The notes under the pieces are model-generated. The model worked only from the letters and a program-made list of their open reading frames with translations. It did no database searches and was not told the DNA's origin. Shown in pieces: positions 20,866 through 63,700 of a DNA stretch of 64,000 bases; positions within the stretch are counted from its first letter, which is position 1; each line of letters opens with the position of its first letter. The translations under genes were made by a program, and so were the position numbers. This DNA comes from Lucinisca nassula (Eukaryota > Mollusca > Bivalvia > Lucinida > Lucinidae), in contig OY757013.1 of NCBI GenBank assembly GCA_963580285.1, forward strand, positions 155,547,900 to 155,611,899, read 5' to 3'.

Positions 20866-21476
20866 AGACCTAACTAGACAAAATTTTGACATAAAACTTT
20901 AACATTTTCTGCTACCAATGACCGTGGTAAATTGGTTGTTCGGGAATGTTGTTCATACGTTGAACTAGACTTTGTTTGTTTGGTTTAAACTTTATTTTAT
21001 TTGCATAATACATGAAAAGTATACAAAACAGAATATAATACGATTACAGTACAATGACTATACAAATGGGATTCAGAAAAAAGTCAAATGACTTATTCGA
21101 ATCTGTATCCCAAGTGTTTGCAATACTATTATATGTACAATCTTATTGTAATTGTCATTCAATAATTATGAAATTCCTCACACTTTTGTAACTGTTTAAA
21201 CATAAATATAACAGATAGTTAGAAGGGGCTCCACGGGGAGTGGAACATACTTGCATTTTTGTAATAATTAAGAAGGCATTATGTTATGGACAACATTCAA
21301 CAAAAAACCTGTAAAGAGCTGGATTTCATGCTGTTCGACATATGTGTAAGAGTTCCCGCATTTGAAAGTAGCGCATCTAAATTTTCTTTATCTTAGTTAT
21401 ACCATATAAACACATGTGGTCAGAGGTAATTACTTTTAAAGTTGATGCATGGGTATAAACAGTCGATCAGACTAAA

Positions 21477-23825
21477 TCAAAAGCGTTTAGATTTTAATAT
21501 GTACATGTAATCATGCACCGCTGAGAAGATATCTTTATTTTGGTCGTCTGACAGGTCAGTACTACCATATAAGAAAATATTTACTGTTGGTTGACAATAT
21601 ATCGAGACTCTATTTAGCAGCTCTTGCCTGATCTGTCCAAAACGGTTGCATATAAAGAAAAAATGTGAAGTGTCCTCAACTGCGCCACATTCGCATAAAG
21701 GACTGTCAATAATATTTTTCTGAAAAAGGTGTTGGCTTAAAGAGCTACAGTTCAGTCGTATTCGAGCATGATATATTTGTCCTAGTCGTGAACCAGATTG
21801 GTAGTATTGTGGGGGCTTGTTAATATTATTATTAAGTTTATATTTAAAAGTTGCTGCAGACGGTGAGTTCTTAATATCTTCCGAAAGATTATTCCAAATT
21901 CGCGTGGATGAAGGAAGAAATGAATTATAGTACTGCTGGGATCTTGCAGGGATTGTCTGAAGGTTTGTCTCATTACGCAAATTATATCGAGATATACTGC
22001 CTACAGTTGGTGGTACAAGTGAAGAGAGGTATTCGGGGGTAATATTGTTAACCATCTTATAGTATAGGATGAGTTTGTGTTTTTCTCTTCTCGATGCAAG
22101 ACTTTCCCACCCTGTGTCCGATAGAAGTGATTGGATTGATGCAAGTTTAGTTGCTCCCGTGACAATACGAGCAGCTTCATTTTGGATTTTTTCCAAGTCG
22201 TTTGACTCTTGCTGAGTGCAGTTATCCCAAACAACATTGGCGTATTCTAAAAGTGGTCTTATAAAAGATATAAATATAGTTTGAAGAGACTTTCTATCAA
22301 GCTGGAATTTCAGTCTACGCATAATATTTATGCGAAACCATGCTTTTGCTTTAACAAGTTCTATATGTTCGTGCCAGGAACAGTCCTTTGAGAAGGTGAG
22401 ACCTAAGTGTTTGTGGAAGTCCACATCATTAATTAATTGTTGATTCATGTTAAGCGGTGGATGAAGGGGTTTATTATGTTTCCGTGATAATACCATGGAG
22501 TCAGATTTCGCTGGGTTGAAAGATACAAGCCATTTAGTCGCCCACGAATGTATTTTGGCAAGGTCTGCATTCAATTCATCAGCCGCATGTATAGGGTTGT
22601 CTACAATAATATAAAGGCTGGTATCGTCGGCGAAGAGCCGTATACAAGAGTTAATATCGTCTACAATGTCATTGATGAAGATAAGAAAAAGTATAGGTCC
22701 TAAAATAGATCCCTGCGGTACACCTGCTTTAAGAGGTGCCCAGGAAGAAGCAGATCCAGGTAATACTACTCTCTGTTTCCTGTTTTCCAAATAGTCCTTA
22801 AGCCACGCCAGGAAAGAGCCAGATATCCCAGTAGATTCGAGCTTATAGAGAAGGCCACGGTGCCACACTCTATCAAATGCCTTGCTTATATCGCAAAACA
22901 CTGCGCGAACTTCTTTGCCTTGGTCAAGAGATTGACAGAAAGTGTTATATATATCTACAAGCTGATTGACTGTAGAGTCGCCGGGAATAAATCCTGACTG
23001 TAATGTTGTCAGTATGTCATTATCTCGGATGAAATTAAATAAATGTTTATGAACTATTTTTTCTAAGACTTTGCCTACAGCACTGAGAAGAGATATAGGC
23101 CTATAATTAGAAACAACTGAGGGGTCGTCTTTTTTAAAAATAGGAGTTACATTTGCTTCCTTCCATATCAAAGGTACCTTGCCAGAGGTTAACGAGAAGT
23201 TAAATAAATCACTAAGAGGAAAAGAAAGAGGTTGAGCTAGTTCCTTCAATACGCGGTTGTTTATAGAGTCGGGGCCCGTTGCCTTGCCTAATTTTAAGGA
23301 TTTTAAAACGGATTCAACTTCGGAGGGTGAAGTAGAGACAGAACTCAAGCTATGTCCAGGAGGGGGAAAGTCAAATGATAAGGTGGCATTTGTTTCGTCC
23401 AGCTCGGTTTGTCCTACAAAGAAATCGTTCATTAGCCTTGCCTTGTCAACCTCTTCTGTGTAGACAGTATCATCTTTGTATAACGGAGGGACTGAGGATG
23501 ATTGGTCAGGTTTTATAAACTGCTTAAGAGTCTTCCACCAGTCACGTGGTCCTATATCGTTATTATTAAGTTTTGCCGCCAATTTGTCTATTTGTTGTTG
23601 TTTAAGCTTGCGAATTTCTGCTGTAGTATTATTTCTTACGCGTTTATAGCTTTCAAAGTCTGTTATGTTATTTGTTCTTTTAAATTTTTTGTATAAACGT
23701 TTGCGTTTTCTAATTAATTTTTTAGCATCGTTTGTTAACCAGGAAGGATCAGATTGTCGTATCTTAACTCTTTTATTGGGGATGTGTTTGTCAGCTAGTT
23801 CTGAGATACGTCTTGTTAATATCTA
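21477..23825 (-). CDS. LINE ORF2, C-terminal part: reverse transcriptase
   Basis: Open from the frameshift near 23815 to the stop at 21477. The frame upstream of 23582 is a continuation with no Met needed. RT blocks appear in order: 'NYRPISLLSAVGKVLEK', 'QSGFIPGDSTVNQL', 'FCDISKAFDRVWH' (first catalytic Asp), 'GVPQGSILGPILFLIFIND' and 'RLFADDTSLY' (FADD at 22623-22634, catalytic pair intact), then 'FNPAKSD' and 'HLGLTFS' of the thumb side. The C-terminus holds CECGAVEDTSHFFFIC, a C-x-C-x6-H-x4-C knuckle often seen at LINE C-termini. All catalytic RT residues are present, so the RT could be functional if the frameshift were bypassed. No RNase H domain is seen. Confidence 0.92.
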
Positions 23826-24807
23826 TATCAATGTTCATAAGTGTTTCCCAGTCAGTTTCTCGAATATCGCGAGTAAAAGATTCATAATCACCGCGATCAA
23901 ATAACCGTATATGCCTGTAGAAGGCAGGAACTACATTTTTATGAAAGTTTAATACAAAATAGACTGGACAATGGTACCTAGTATTTTGATCGAGAAATGG
24001 GTCACCTACCCCGCTTAAAAGTATACTATTTTTATTGGAAGTAAAGACCAAATCTATAATAGAAGATGAGTTCTCAGTGAAATGGGTTGGCTCCACTATT
24101 ATCTGGTCTATGCTGAATTGTTGACAGATATCAGAAATTTTTTCATTGGTTGCGTTTTTTAGGGTATCGAGATTGAGATCAACTGTAATAAATACGTCTT
24201 TTATATTACTATCAAAGGCAAGGCTAATTGAATCTTCAATAACAGACATGATTTGGGAAGGGGAATTTGGGGGTCTATAGAAATTTCCTAGAAGAAATTT
24301 TCTGTGATGAACTGTGACTTCGACCCAGATGCACTCAATATTCGGTAATTCAAGATCGCTCCGACGACGGGAAAATACGTTGTCCTTAATGTAGACGCAT
24401 ACCCCTCCGTGGTTATCTCCACCTCGGTCACGGCGATAAAGTTTGAATCCATCTAGTTTTATGGAGTCGTCGGGTATATTTTGGTTAAGCCAAGTTTCTG
24501 TTAAGCAGATGATAGAAAAATTTCTTAGTTCAGTTCCTATCAAATCAATTTTATTAGTGATGCTTTGGATGTTGTAATGAACTATAGAGAAGTATTTTGA
24601 TAGTAATGCATCATCCATGTCTAATGAGTCAGATTCAGTTTGAGATAAATTCGGGCCGGGGTTGAGTTCGATGTCCCCTGATCGTTGTAGTAAAAGTGAT
24701 AGAATTATCAATAATTCAAAAAGCGTAATGTGTTTTATTCCTTTAACTTTGCAGTGGCGAACGTAATGTAAGCCTATCCGCATCCTGTAAAGTTGAATAT
24801 CACTCAT
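23791..24807 (-). CDS. LINE ORF2, N-terminal part: signal-like segment, 2A-like motif, APE endonuclease
   Basis: A 338-residue frame. Residues 24-41 are hydrophobic (ITLFELLIILSLLLQ), followed at 45-52 by DIELNPGP (24652-24675), which fits the 2A consensus D-V/I-E-x-N-P-G-P with recoding between G51 and P52. An APE endonuclease follows: 'HYNIQS', 'LTETWL', 'RDRGGDNHGGV', 'GNFYRPP', 'IIDLVFTSN' and a terminal 'HCPVYF'. Two usual catalytic positions look altered: the GDFN block reads VDLN, and the Asp of SDH reads Tyr (RYHCPV). Nuclease activity is therefore doubtful. The frame ends by frameshift, and the next frame continues the protein directly into the RT part. In families with this layout, 2A makes the ribosome skip a bond and, near a signal sequence, can split protein targeting; function here is inference. 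Confidence 0.88.
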   Translation of the reverse strand: MSDIQLYRMRIGLHYVRHCKVKGIKHITLFELLIILSLLLQRSGDIELNPGPNLSQTESDSLDMDDALLSKYFSIVHYNIQSITNKIDLIGTELRNFSIICLTETWLNQNIPDDSIKLDGFKLYRRDRGGDNHGGVCVYIKDNVFSRRRSDLELPNIECIWVEVTVHHRKFLLGNFYRPPNSPSQIMSVIEDSISLAFDSNIKDVFITVDLNLDTLKNATNEKISDICQQFSIDQIIVEPTHFTENSSSIIDLVFTSNKNSILLSGVGDPFLDQNTRYHCPVYFVLNFHKNVVPAFYRHIRLFDRGDYESFTRDIRETDWETLMNIDIDINKTYLRTS

Positions 24808-24830
24808 TCAATTCTAGGAGAAGGCCCTGT

Positions 24831-25152
24831 GGATGCGGATAGTGCGAGCAACATGCGGGCACATGTTTGGGATACCCAGCGTCGTCCATGATTGAACGTT
24901 TTGTTAGTTGAAATCAGGTAATACAGTCAATTAGCCAACGTGTTAATTTGGACGACGCTAGCACTGGTTTAGTTTGAATCCTGTCCATGGTAATACTAAT
25001 GGTCATTAAAAATGAGAAGAAATAAAATTCCCCGTGGAGCAAAGTAATGGTAAAGTGAAAAACAGCAAAAGTAAGTACAAAATGTAACATAATGTTACCG
25101 GTGAAAACACAATGAATCAGGACAAAGGACAAATGCTTTTTAATCAATCGAT
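24831..25152. other. LINE 5' flank, unassigned
   Basis: Probably includes the LINE 5' UTR. 'tgtggatgcggatagtgcga' lies just upstream of the start. No other feature recognised before the MITE at 25153. Confidence 0.4.
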
Positions 25153-25400
25153 CATCGCGAAAACACGCCTATATAATTTGGACCCCTTAAACCCCACTCT
25201 CATGTAGAAGAACTGGGGTTTACAGAGGTATACAATATTTTGCCTGCATCTTACCAAAAGCATAGACCGCTGGTACTCGACATAGCCGCGGCCCTCTCGG
25301 GCCCCAACAATCCACCCTCCGAGCAGAAAAGAGAAAAAGAAAAAAATCATAATTTTTCATCTTAATGGCAATGTCTTTGTACAGGCGTGTTTTCGCAATA
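25153..25400. repeat. HpM MITE, variant with degraded centre
   Basis: Inverted ends CATCGCGAAAACACGCCTATA (25153) and the complement of TATTGCGAAAACACGCCTGT (25378-25400). The arm 'actggggtttacagagg' is present, but the central palindrome is reduced to 'gctggtactcgacatagccg'. Confidence 0.75.
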
Positions 25401-26067
25401 GAAGTCAACATTCTGCTATTTGGATCTTTACTATCTATAACAGATCTGAAACAGTTTCATAAAAAAAAAAATATGTTAACGGAGAAAAGAATCATGCTTG
25501 GTCGGTTCCGTCACAGATCTCATACAGCGTCGAGACAAGACCTAACCAACATCGATTCGACGTCGCTGTCTAATCAATGCTGTACCGGTGTTGTTCCAAC
25601 GCTATACGCCCACTGAAATAAATAAGATCTCTCTACCCAATACTTGACAATAATGAAACCATAGCGGTTGGAATCTTTTAAGCAAGTATAAACACAATTC
25701 AGTTGAACAATTTTGAGCCGGGGCATGGCAATCCGTGTTGAAACTTCAAACGAAGAAGAAGAGAGAAAAAATGTCTTCTATTTTCTATTTATACCGTTAA
25801 ACAAGGTAAAAGAGAAATTCACGAAAGTCTTCATATGGTCACATAGACCCGACCAAGACTAAGCACCTCTGGCCGCTAGTAAAGTTTTGCAGTTTTCTCC
25901 ATGCCGCGGCTCTTCAGTAACACGAGATAACCGTGTTTGAGTCAAGATCGGTGAAATCAATAGGTCAGCCATGAGACCGTGCGTGTATATGAAGATAGGT
26001 ATTTGTCAAAGTCAACAGTGGACTACATGATACAGATGTAAGTACATGAAGTTCTTGTAATATTATT
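25401..26067. other. Unassigned interval
   Basis: No gene or repeat recognised. A frame of 83 residues at 25365-25616 begins inside the MITE and has no family signature. Confidence 0.4.
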
Positions 26068-29737: not shown

Positions 29738-30859
29738 TTAAGCACTTCCTGGCCTACCAGTTTCTCTCACCTCAAATCTCTGTAAGTCAGACATACATGT
29801 AATTTTTATTTTGTTCCCAGATGTATCAAGTACGTGAGGGTATCCCGCGTAAACCCATGTTTTCTTGATTGTAGAACTTGTTCTTTTAACTCGTCTGCAT
29901 TCGTATGCTAACATTTTTCTGAAAGGTGTAAGGTCCTCGTTGATGAAGATATTCCTCACATTGTCATTACGCAATTTTGCACGCCCCCGCAGAAAATTTA
30001 GTCTGGCGACACTATTTGTAAATTTGATTATTATTTCACGCGGTTCGGGATGACCCGCACCACGACGTCTCGTAACACTTTCCACATCCCCTCCGTTATA
30101 CCTGCCCACACGATGCGCGCGATCAATATCGCTGGGGCTTATGTTTGCGTTTACTCGCTTGGCAAAGTCCAGTACAACCTTGGTAACATCTTCATTCTGT
30201 GTTTCTGATATACCAGCTAATCGCAGACACATCCTTCTTGAATATTGTTCTGTGTCGTCTTGTTTTCTGTTTAATGTATCATATTCTTCTTTAAGTGAGC
30301 TGTACTTCTGTTTCAGGTCGTCTAGTTCAGACCTTATAGATGCTATTGCTGAATTAACCTTGGTCTGGACAAGCTGACTTATCTCATCATTCAGCATGGA
30401 TTTAACAGCAAGCGCTATTCTAGCAATGTCCTGATCTGATAATGCTGGCATAACCGGTTGTTGAAACTGGGTGAACATTTGATTTGGCAAAGTATATTGA
30501 TCACTGAACATCATGGGGTTCATCATCGACGGCGGTGGAGGCGGTAGCTGAGTAGCAGCTGCCTCGGCAGCTACACCCGATGGGTCCTCACTCTGGAGTG
30601 TTAGCTCTAGATCTTGCATTATAGGACTTAGTGGCGTATTCCTGCAAGTGGAATCAGTGGGTTTGATGCTAACTGGAGTTTTAAGAAGTGACAGTGACTC
30701 ATTTGACGTATCGTGTTCGGCTAGTACAGTTGGTTCCTCGGCCGTTACCTCAGTTTGACATTTGTTGACTGTCTTGTGTGGCTTGTTCTTTTTAGGGGAA
30801 GATTGTAGTAAAGGCGAGGATTTATTGCGTTTCCTACCCTTGCTTCTATGGCCCCGCAT
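29738..30859 (-). CDS. LINE ORF1-type nucleic-acid-binding protein, intact
   Basis: A 373-residue uninterrupted frame starting MRGHRSKGRKRNK. Order: Lys/Arg-rich N-terminus (1-30), low-complexity middle with a PPPPPP run (106-111), predicted coiled coil about 160-205 ('LDDLKQKYSSLKEEYDTL'), then an RRM-like region from about 207 ('RRMCLRLAGISE') containing 'IDRAHRVGR' and 'REIIIKFTNS', and a basic C-terminal region ('FINEDLTPFRKML', 'ITCMSDLQRF'). This is the L1 ORF1p / transposase-22-like plan, which binds LINE RNA as a coiled-coil multimer. No EN/RT ORF follows directly: the next minus-strand LINE coding starts about 4.9 kb downstream and has its own N-terminus. So it is an orphan ORF1, a separate truncated LINE, or a domesticated copy. 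Lack of stops implies recent insertion or constraint. Confidence 0.82.
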   Translation of the reverse strand: MRGHRSKGRKRNKSSPLLQSSPKKNKPHKTVNKCQTEVTAEEPTVLAEHDTSNESLSLLKTPVSIKPTDSTCRNTPLSPIMQDLELTLQSEDPSGVAAEAAATQLPPPPPSMMNPMMFSDQYTLPNQMFTQFQQPVMPALSDQDIARIALAVKSMLNDEISQLVQTKVNSAIASIRSELDDLKQKYSSLKEEYDTLNRKQDDTEQYSRRMCLRLAGISETQNEDVTKVVLDFAKRVNANISPSDIDRAHRVGRYNGGDVESVTRRRGAGHPEPREIIIKFTNSVARLNFLRGRAKLRNDNVRNIFINEDLTPFRKMLAYECRRVKRTSSTIKKTWVYAGYPHVLDTSGNKIKITCMSDLQRFEVRETGRPGSA

Positions 30860-54857: not shown

Positions 54858-56271
54858 CTATTTAAATTTACCATTCTTCTGGGGACTATCGGGATCTGTA
54901 GTGTCATCCTCAAAGGTAAAGATGCTGGAAACATGCTTCCAATATGCATATCTTATTACCTTTTGTATGTATGCTTTGAACCGTTTGTAATGGCTCTTAA
55001 TGTCAGGGCTGCTAGACTTACGAGCCCGAAAGCGCAATCGATTGCGTCTTCTGATTAGATGCTTGATCGTGTTGTCGATCCAAGGCGCACTATACTTTGT
55101 TTTGGTCATTTTTATTGGAATAAACATTTCCATAGCCGCAGTTAATTCGGCGTTAAAATTGACCCACATATCATTAACTGACATGTGCGAAAGGTCAGAG
55201 GAAAGGAACGAATCCCTAAATCGCGCCATATAGTCTCGCAGACCATCCATATCCGCACGTTTATATAGGTATATTTTACGCGGGACTTGTCTGATTCGCT
55301 CTGCTTTTATGCCATATTCAATTAGGACTATGTCGTGATCAGCTTTGCCGATCGGGGGCATCTCCTTAACTCGAGTAACTGGGGATGGGGAGTTTGTTAA
55401 TAATAGATCAAGGGTCTTTTCTTGTCGGGTGGGTATATTAATTACTTGGGCCAGGCAGTGTTCTTTAATTATATCTAAAAGTTGTTGCTGTGTCTGCCTT
55501 TTAGATGCCCCATGGGGCTCCTGCATGTTGCTCCATTCAATATCTCCACAATTGAAGTCACCACCAACCAAAATTGGAGCATTTGCATTCGACATTATCC
55601 TAGACAAAGATGAACTAAAAATAGAAGTGAAAGCAATGATCAGGAATCGATACAATCAACCCACAGCTCCCATCAGTAGCCTCAATACATTCTGGGTCAG
55701 TTTGATTTGGTGGGCGATAAAAGGAACCAAGGTACAAAGTCCTACATCCATGAATGTTCAATTTACACCAAATTAATTCATATTTGGTGTCCAACTCCGG
55801 AGTTTCTGTACAGATTAGGTCTCGCCTGAAAGCCACAAAGACACCTCCATGTGCATTCCACACTCTGTCGTTCCGGATAGCCTAAAAGGATTCGGGAAAA
55901 AATTCTGAGTTTTTAACTTCTGGGGTTAGCCAGGACTCATTGCCCAAAATGATGTCCGGCTTTGCCGAGTCAATAATGGTATGAAGTTCAGCCCTTTTGT
56001 TTTTTATTGACTGACAATTCATCATCAATATCCTGAGGGGGTGGTTAAGGACCGCCTTTTTGGTCCTTGGTTTAGCTTCTTTTGACTTCTGCACAATGGG
56101 CGAAGAAGCTGCAGTGGTTGGGCCAATATTGTCTGGTATCGGACTATCAGGCTCGGACAGGGTTGATAAAGGTTCAAAGTGGTTATACGTGTCAATAGAA
56201 GATGAAGTGTCAAACAGAGATGTGGAAACGTTTGGCATTCCACATTTCGTGCATTCCCATGCTACGTTCAT
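54858..56271 (-). pseudogene. LINE endonuclease relic, interrupted by stop and R500
   Basis: Begins MNVAWECTKCGMPN (a CxxC pair). A Ser/Pro-rich stretch and KPRTKKA precede the endonuclease: 'LMMNCQSIKNK', 'ILGNESWL' and 'EFFPESF', then a TAG. The same frame continues 'AIRNDRVWNAHGGVFVAF' and 'LGSFYRPPNQTD'. The 56-bp R500 piece then shifts the frame. After it come 'SNANAPILVGGDFNCGDIEW', 'KTLDLLLTN' and 'KADHDIVLIEY', so GDFN and the catalytic Asp-His are intact. The linker 'APWIDNTIKHLIRRRNRLR' follows. Apart from stop and insertion it is well preserved. Confidence 0.85.
55621..55676 (-). repeat. R500 3'-terminal fragment inserted in LINE endonuclease
   Basis: 'atagaagtgaaagcaatgat', 'caggaatcgatacaatcaac' and 'ccacagctcccatca' are the last 56 bp of R500, here in reverse. 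It is the shortest 5'-truncated copy. Confidence 0.85.
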
Positions 56272-62437: not shown

Positions 62438-63700
62438 GCTACGAGGACTGTTCAAATATGAATGCAAGTAGAACGTTTTCTCATGTACTAATGCAAAAAT
62501 CACCTGGAAATAAATATCACAGCGTAGAAAAACATTTTACCTATACATTGATACCAAACCTGTTAAAATCCCTGCACTTTAGCCATGTATATCGTTCGAT
62601 AAACACTGTCTACTCTTGTATACTAATACAAAACATGGTTGGAGGAAGGTCAGAGTACGCCGTTGAAATACGGTCCTGTATTAAGAATCGTTGTATTCTT
62701 GGTATACGGTGCAAAGACATTTTTGATGAAATATGTTCGGTTTATGGGCATAATGAAATGTCTTTTCCGACAGTTTTTCGTTGGTGTAAGAAATTCAGCT
62801 GTGGGCTAGTCTCAACAGAAGATGCACCACAGGATCGTCGGCCGAAAAGAGCAACATCTGCCAAGATGGTTGCTAGAGTGAAAGAAATAGTTGCTACCGA
62901 TGCACGATACACCACTAGGCAAATAGCTAGTATGGTTGGCATCTCATTAGGAGCAGCTCATACAATTCTGAAACGGGATTTGAAAACAAAAAAGATCTGT
63001 GCTAGATGGATTCCCCATCTGTTGACAGATGAGCAGAAAAAGACACGCGTTCAGTGCGCCAAGAAGTTGCTTAAAAAGTTTCCAAATTACAATGCACGGT
63101 CTTTCGCTAATGTCGTCACAGGTGACGAGACATGGGTTCACTTTTTTGAGCCAAAACGAAAGATTCAGAACAAAATATGGGCAACAAAGTATTGCGAAAG
63201 ACCATGCATTGCAAAGCGGACCATGAGCGCCAAGAAGGTAATGTATGCCATATTCTTTTCAAATCAGGGCCCTGCTATTCAGATTGCTGTGCCTAAAGGC
63301 AAAGCTGTAAATGCGAAGTTTTACAAGAATAAAGTTCTTCGAAAATTGAAGAAATATTTCAAAGAACGAAGGCCCGCAACTGGTTTGGCCAATGTCAGAT
63401 TGCTACATGACAATGCGTCATCGCACAAGGCGTTCATTGTGCAAGACTATCTGAAGCAGGAAAAGGTTGTTGAACTCCCTCACCCCCCGTATTCCCCTGA
63501 CCTTGCCCCGTGTGACTTTTTTGTTCCCGCGGCTGAAAAAAAACTTTTTGTAAAGCGCAAACACCTCGGTTCTGCAATATTCCAGTGCCTTCATAGTATA
63601 CCTCGAAAAGACTACCAAAATGCATTCAATGATTAGATCAGAAGACTGAAAGTTTGTATATCTGTTAAAGGGGAATACTTTGAGGGGACAAAATAAATTT
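62438..63700 (+). mobile_element. mariner element, left end present, right end not found
   Basis: Left end CTACGAGGACTGTTCAAATA (62438-62457) resembles mariner TIRs. A matching right end is not visible after the coding region; 63700-63745 diverges and then becomes TTAA-G sequence. The right end is probably deleted or mutated. Confidence 0.75.
62635..63696 (+). pseudogene. mariner transposase, near complete but broken at C-terminus
   Basis: DDE transposase of the Tc1/mariner group. The likely start is MVGGRSEYA at 62635; the upstream 59 codons are open but lie in the element's left UTR. Helix-turn-helix DNA-binding region about residues 5-110 ('SFPTVFRWCKKF', 'TTRQIASMVGIS'), linker 'ARWIPHLLTDEQK', then catalytic VTGDETW (Asp 63124-63126), LLHDNAS (Asp 63409-63411) and YSPDLAPCDFF (Asp 63514-63516). 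34 residues lie between the second and third Asp (DD34D). Two faults follow. 63517-63560 is read in the wrong frame between two compensating indels; the +1 frame reads FLFPRLKK, the usual motif. A TAG at 63634 replaces the conserved Trp before IRRLKVCIS; the frame then continues to TAA at 63694-63696 ('GEYFEGTK'). Confidence 0.9.

Follow-up and report, generated by a model that had tools for sequence, protein, structure and literature searches.

In the window, the 64,000-nucleotide stretch of Lucinisca nassula DNA analysed here, we detected a LINE spanning 4.7 kb or more on the minus strand with a 2A-like core, DIELNPGP, ahead of its endonuclease. Based on the position and conservation of this core, we consider it likely that a StopGo (2A) release site heads this one-ORF endonuclease-type LINE, and that, across the wider family, it acts as a portable 5' module. 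The preliminary description of this DNA had placed DIELNPGP at 24675..24652, behind a hydrophobic run at the start of a minus-strand LINE ORF, and had read it as a 2A-like site in front of an endonuclease-RT. Both its coordinates and its residues were confirmed, and the reading is borne out by matches to Exo_endo_phos and RVT_1 and by the conservation of the core in other copies.

We hypothesize that, when translation reaches residue 51, the nascent leucine-rich segment together with DIELNPG would block the formation of the Gly-Pro bond. A 51-residue N-peptide would then be freed and translation would resume at Pro52, and most of the endonuclease-RT would be made without its basic-hydrophobic N-peptide.

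Layout of the LINE in the window

The minus-strand ORF at 24807..23791 starts with ATG, encodes 338 amino acids and reads MSDIQLYRMRIGLHYVRHCKVKGIKHITLFELLIILSLLLQRSGDIELNPGP..., and its protein consists, in order from 24807, of a basic peptide, the hydrophobic run ITLFELLIILSLLLQ, RSG, DIELNPGP, a spacer and the endonuclease. The run (residues 27-41; 24685..24729, minus strand) lies among the 44 residues that precede the core, contains a Glu (E31), and represents a leucine-rich 2A upstream context that is possibly signal-like. The core itself (residues 45-52; 24652..24675, minus strand) is conserved, with no replacements between families, and skipping is predicted between Gly51 and Pro52, so that the putative N-peptide comprises residues 1-51 (24655..24807, minus strand). 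The spacer and the endonuclease part follow at 23791..24651 on the minus strand, with the Pfam domain Exo_endo_phos (PF03372, E 6e-08) at residues 77-213, while RVT_1 was found with an E value of 5.5e-33 in a separate ORF (23582..21477), which corresponds to the reverse transcriptase part (21477..23582, minus strand). The RT lies in another frame because the window copy is broken between endonuclease and RT; both are encoded in one open frame of approximately 1112-1123 codons in other copies of the family.

The 5' UTR extends over 24808..25993 on the minus strand, its left end being placed near 25993, as 9 of the 13 window-family copies compared with L002 stop at the same position, 1318 nt upstream of the 2A core. 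No ORF1 was found, the 5' part of the window copy having no ORF of at least 80 aa on the minus strand, and the longest stop-free stretch in the 5' part of L002 is 103 codons. On the other side, the 3' UTR extends at least to 21228. With an APE-type endonuclease, an RT, a single ORF and no ORF1, the window element has the composition of the 2A-bearing non-LTR retrotransposons. Odon et al. reportedly found, in 2013, 2A-like sites ahead of the endonuclease in one-ORF APE-type non-LTR retrotransposons. The RT of known 2A-bearing APE-type LINEs belongs to the Rex1, Crack, L2, CR1 or Ingi clades. Like the elements that Odon et al. are said to have described, the window LINE has its 2A-like core before the endonuclease and a single ORF, with no testable difference in the window copy.

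The named nearest relatives come from bivalves (Mercenaria, Pinctada) or from metagenome-assembled genomes (MAGs) of lucinid symbionts, which points to a probable molluscan host, and a sequence search against solved structures gave no match. Many animal-type LINE proteins (P0012, P0016, P0018, P0022-P0024 and others) are filed under Candidatus Thiodiazotropha MAGs, and these probably represent lucinid clam DNA that was binned with the symbiont.

The UTRs of the LINE carry complementary motifs about 3.8 kb apart, of the GCTCCACGGGGA type in the 5' UTR (25029..25040, minus strand, in the window) and of the TCCCCGTGGAGC type in the 3' UTR (21228..21239, minus strand). Both were found in 18 of the 28 elements listed, namely the window element, L036, L038-L041, L044-L048, L057, L058, L060, L061, L063, L066 and L067, with a complementarity of 12-15 bp in 17 of them and of 9 bp, including one G-U pair, in L045. 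Among the remaining 10, nine lack the 3' motif alone, in most cases because the locus ends close to or short of where it would lie, and L064 has neither. In L038, L044 and L046 the motifs vary in a matching fashion at both ends. The duplex energies of the own pairs, calculated on motif-centred pieces, were equalled by 140 of 40320 re-pairings among families that are related and non-independent. A test on the longest complement was weak, with shuffles reaching up to 14 bp, 1976 of 40320 re-pairings being as good, and the motif of L036 cut off. The motifs may possibly mediate an end-to-end pairing of the LINE RNA. Besides, the subfamily of L047, L048 and L069 has a long (CA)n tract in its 3' UTR, approximately 110-210 nt past the stop codon, that was not seen at this position in the window copy.

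Other features of the window include, as judged by eye, an L1-type ORF1-like sequence of 373 aa (29738..30859, minus strand), a LINE endonuclease-like ORF (54858..55655, minus strand) and a mariner-like transposase ORF (62458..63636, plus strand), as well as a weak tRNA match (RF00005; 47205..47262, minus strand) that scores 30.9 bits (cut-off 29).

Conservation of the 2A core

The window core fits the expanded StopGo core (D/G/C/N)(V/I)ExNPGP described in PMC12846837. The degenerate DNA pattern of DIELNPGP has one match in the window and none in 100 shuffles. NPGP alone is expected 0.53 times per 64 kb, and the weight against chance therefore rests on conservation. A chance match is excluded by the shuffles together with the conservation in own-genome copies and relatives.

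Within the genome, 10425 candidates were obtained at first look and 119 were scored. In all, 70 loci were used (30 from the search output and 40 hand-picked, one of the latter being a 301-base piece); a readable endonuclease start was present in 66 of the 70, the window's own included. These loci are best matches and no random sample, and some lie near one another. The preliminary description had named copies lacking the motif as evidence against it; at least one intact core is kept in 64 of the 65 other own-genome copies among these best matches. One D-type core was found in 34 copies (26 belong to the window family, 5 to the L047 subfamily and 3, L035, L042 and L043, to the tandem group), one G-type core (GIExNPGP or GVERNPGP) in 14 and two D-type cores in 16, and a single copy, L026, has a damaged core. 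Families with G at position 12 (p12=G) are ruled out as 2A-losers, since p12=G is a prevalent and active StopGo variant according to PMC12846837.

For the relatives, the best 120 each of 341, 800 and 568 database matches yielded 185 proteins, of which 114 could be counted, their endonuclease start being preceded by 40 residues or more, and 71 could not. Among the matches listed, 90 of the 114 have an intact core, with E or H at p14, the latter being a rare but active variant (PMC12846837). NPGP is kept with another core position altered in 11 of the 114 listed, one NPGP residue is changed in 12, and a larger loss occurs in one (P0011). The damaged NPGP of these 13 of 114 listed relatives and of L026 may point to decayed copies or to a dispensable 2A. 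The distance to the enzyme is also restricted, with NPGP starting 14-40 residues before the endonuclease start in 147 proteins among the matches listed, except for the first cores of two tandem proteins (66 and 68 residues).

Two further types of N-terminus were observed. A distant group (P0065, P0071, P0073, P0082, P0115 and others) has a longer, unrelated N-terminus, mostly with D(V/I)HPNPGP cores and with long uncharged runs ahead of the core. P0125 from Pinctada imbricata has its core at residues 15-22 and a second core-like DVETNPGP at residues 246-253, about 230 residues further on and within or after the endonuclease region.

The comparison of L031 with L040, two families with two cores each, indicates how the core evolves relative to its surroundings. 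Their dS is 1.25 for the endonuclease and 1.34 for the remainder. The two cores together show no replacement at 36.6 sites, with 7 silent changes at approximately 11.4, while replacements amount to 18/54 in the linker, 22.7/60.5 in the spacer and 45/554 in the endonuclease. Judged from these substitutions, constraint is much stronger on the cores than on the flanking residues, and an excess of constraint over the whole endonuclease is not clear. Between L002 and L047, the core has 0 replacements and 2 silent changes.

Tandem cores and chimeric relatives

Elements of the L031 type carry two 2A modules in tandem, ...FELLTFLSMLLVMCGDIETNPGP-VLDYLSPLQTSLDLIIMPLLLVRSGDIELNPGP-..., and the L040 type is built likewise. 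These families have open frames of up to 1177 codons and a distance from core end to core end of approximately 33-40 residues. L042 and L043, which lie on different contigs and have different 5' extents, have in common an in-frame deletion of the second module. A separate tandem, outside the own-genome loci, is represented by P0012 and P0019. Several 2A (NPGP) sites in one frame, varying in number among relatives, are also found in picornavirus polyproteins, where the tracts between sites span about 50-150 aa (PMC11512398), as against about 33-40 residues at the start of a retrotransposon protein here. A literature search below full-text level led to no recognised description of tandem 2A in a LINE.

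P0012 and P0019 are well supported as chimeras of two LINE lineages. Their module 1 shares 77% and 72% identity with P0067, while module 2 shares 74-75% and the endonuclease 79% with P0008. Both proteins belong to the P0067 group in the N-peptide tree (64 rows, 52 columns; support 99/94) and to the P0008 group in the tree of the endonuclease (support 99). A constraint that places the N-peptide in the P0008 group is worse by 46.9 lnL (AU p 1.1e-05), and one that places the endonuclease in the P0067 group by 67.0 lnL (AU p 2.8e-04), p values that are somewhat generous because the groups were named after BLAST and a first endonuclease tree.

The own-genome tandems probably, though not demonstrably, arose by capture of a foreign 5' end as well. 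A local duplication of one 2A module, with no foreign 5' end involved, is possible, if somewhat doubtful, as an origin of these tandems. The DNA identity of the modules does not separate duplication from capture, and neither do the AU tests, the tandem N-peptide being held with the window clade at p 0.051 and with P0064 at p 0.29, and the endonuclease at p 0.65 and p 0.28, respectively. On the other hand, the L031 N-peptide is nearest to P0064 (29/42 identical residues, compared to 27/44 for the window family and 21/44 for P0031), whereas its endonuclease shares 50% identity with that of P0064, whose branch in the tree of this domain is long, 71% with the window family and 75% with P0031. The well-supported chimera of P0012 and P0019, which is of the capture type, also speaks against duplication. 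The 12 residues after module 1 rank P0064 3rd of 96 for L031 and 50th of 96 for L040, so that these residues do not single out P0064 as the donor.

Under capture, a LINE would acquire a 5' end of foreign origin that places its own 2A ahead of the old one, resulting in tandem 2A, after which both 2As would be kept or the inner one lost later. We tentatively suggest, as quite a possible reading, that 2A serves LINEs as an adaptor for their 5' ends. A 5' coding end from another element could be accepted in frame and leave the enzyme unharmed, because everything that precedes 2A would be shed in translation. Tandems would represent intermediates, and the loss of the inner 2A, as in L042 and L043, would complete the swap, so that the 5' ends of LINEs would evolve independently of the endonuclease-RT. 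A similar decoupling is known from the reticulate ORF1 history of the Jockey superfamily, where the 5' coding part and the enzyme also differ in history; that history concerns whole ORF1s (PMC4120745), while here a short N-peptide with 2A lies in the same frame as the enzyme. Metcalfe and Casane proposed that shuffling proceeds via a 5'-truncated LINE inserting into another (PMC4120745). Tandem 2A is a possible trace of such a LINE-into-LINE insertion in a one-ORF element.

The N-terminal segment ahead of the core

The sequence LSLLLQRSG in the window fits the leucine-rich StopGo upstream class in a by-eye comparison without a score. The StopGo upstream contexts that suit p12=D include a leucine-rich, LLLLSG-like class with (A/S/C)G at its end (PMC12846837), and the upstream segments of the family are leucine-rich and end in SG, CG or AG, as in known StopGo classes. 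The hydrophobic run would thus primarily be the upstream context of 2A.

The N-peptide could itself be a selected product, for example binding RNA or membranes, with 2A yielding a fixed ratio to the enzyme, an explanation we consider unlikely. The peptide is conserved across families, with a dN/dS of 0.07-0.10, where computable, among the p12=G elements L038, L045, L046 and L062, and a YRxRIGLH...KG pattern is common to many relatives. However, constraint is looser between L031 and L040 (dN/dS 0.42), and P0071, P0082 and P0115 have an unrelated and longer N-terminus before the core.

Somewhat more doubtful still is that the N-peptide is a working signal, with skipping setting the nuclear and secretory shares of the enzyme. 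The sea-urchin NLR genes offer a precedent, as their 2A acts as a signal when skipping fails, and PMC4981915, which reports this, describes the non-LTR 2As known at the time as internal sites. The window element resembles the NLR 2A in that an N-terminal hydrophobic, leucine-rich segment leads into the 2A core. It differs in that the NLR 2A comprises 26 residues, belongs to host immune genes and is a tested signal, while the window has a predicted 51-residue LINE peptide in which an extended basic portion precedes the run.

Across the family, we compared 84 non-redundant upstream segments (from 106), taking as strongly hydrophobic those with a 10-residue stretch of mean Kyte-Doolittle value of at least 2.0. 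By this measure, 75 of the 84 segments are strongly hydrophobic, and runs of 20-24 uncharged residues, the length of membrane segments and beyond the need of the hexapeptide classes, occur in several of the more distant relatives; both observations favor a signal. In the window element, the run has an uninterrupted stretch of 9 residues. An uninterrupted hydrophobic core as in the NLR-type 2A signal was, however, not found family-wide, since 9 of the 84 segments remain below 2.0, the Arg-interrupted clade and module 2 of L036 included. Arg lies within the run with 2A intact in P0050, P0057, P0067, P0076, P0124 and module 1 of P0012. In module 2 of L036, a 9-residue deletion removed most of the run and left LLLVRSGDIELNPGP, within an open frame of 1172 codons. 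Further against a working signal, Glu or Asp occupies position -14, directly before the run, in 34 of the 84 segments. We do not accept the run as a proven signal, as Arg-interrupted and low-hydrophobicity segments retain 2A.

The geometry of translation points in the same direction. The exit tunnel holds 30-40 nascent residues, according to PMC2978324, and the window run is located 10-24 residues upstream of the skip point. The run would therefore still be in the tunnel at that point, skipping should precede SRP recognition, and a signal could act only on unskipped chains. With the run serving as 2A context, it would be retained only by non-skipping chains, which could be misdirected to membranes.

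That the motif is a frozen relic, inherited with its function gone, is very improbable. The window copy is frame-broken and isolated damaged cores exist, but cores in copies with long open frames have no replacements while silent sites and flanks changed.

Overall, the window element is a further case of the already known 2A LINEs. The newer part lies outside the window, in its tandem and chimeric relatives: compared with the elements that Odon et al. reportedly described in 2013, the relatives may add tandem cores, chimeric 5' ends and a p12=G clade. One genome thereby holds a natural series of a single p12=D core, a single p12=G core, a tandem, and a tandem reduced to one, which makes testable both the use of 2A to a LINE and the movement of 5' coding ends between LINE lineages.
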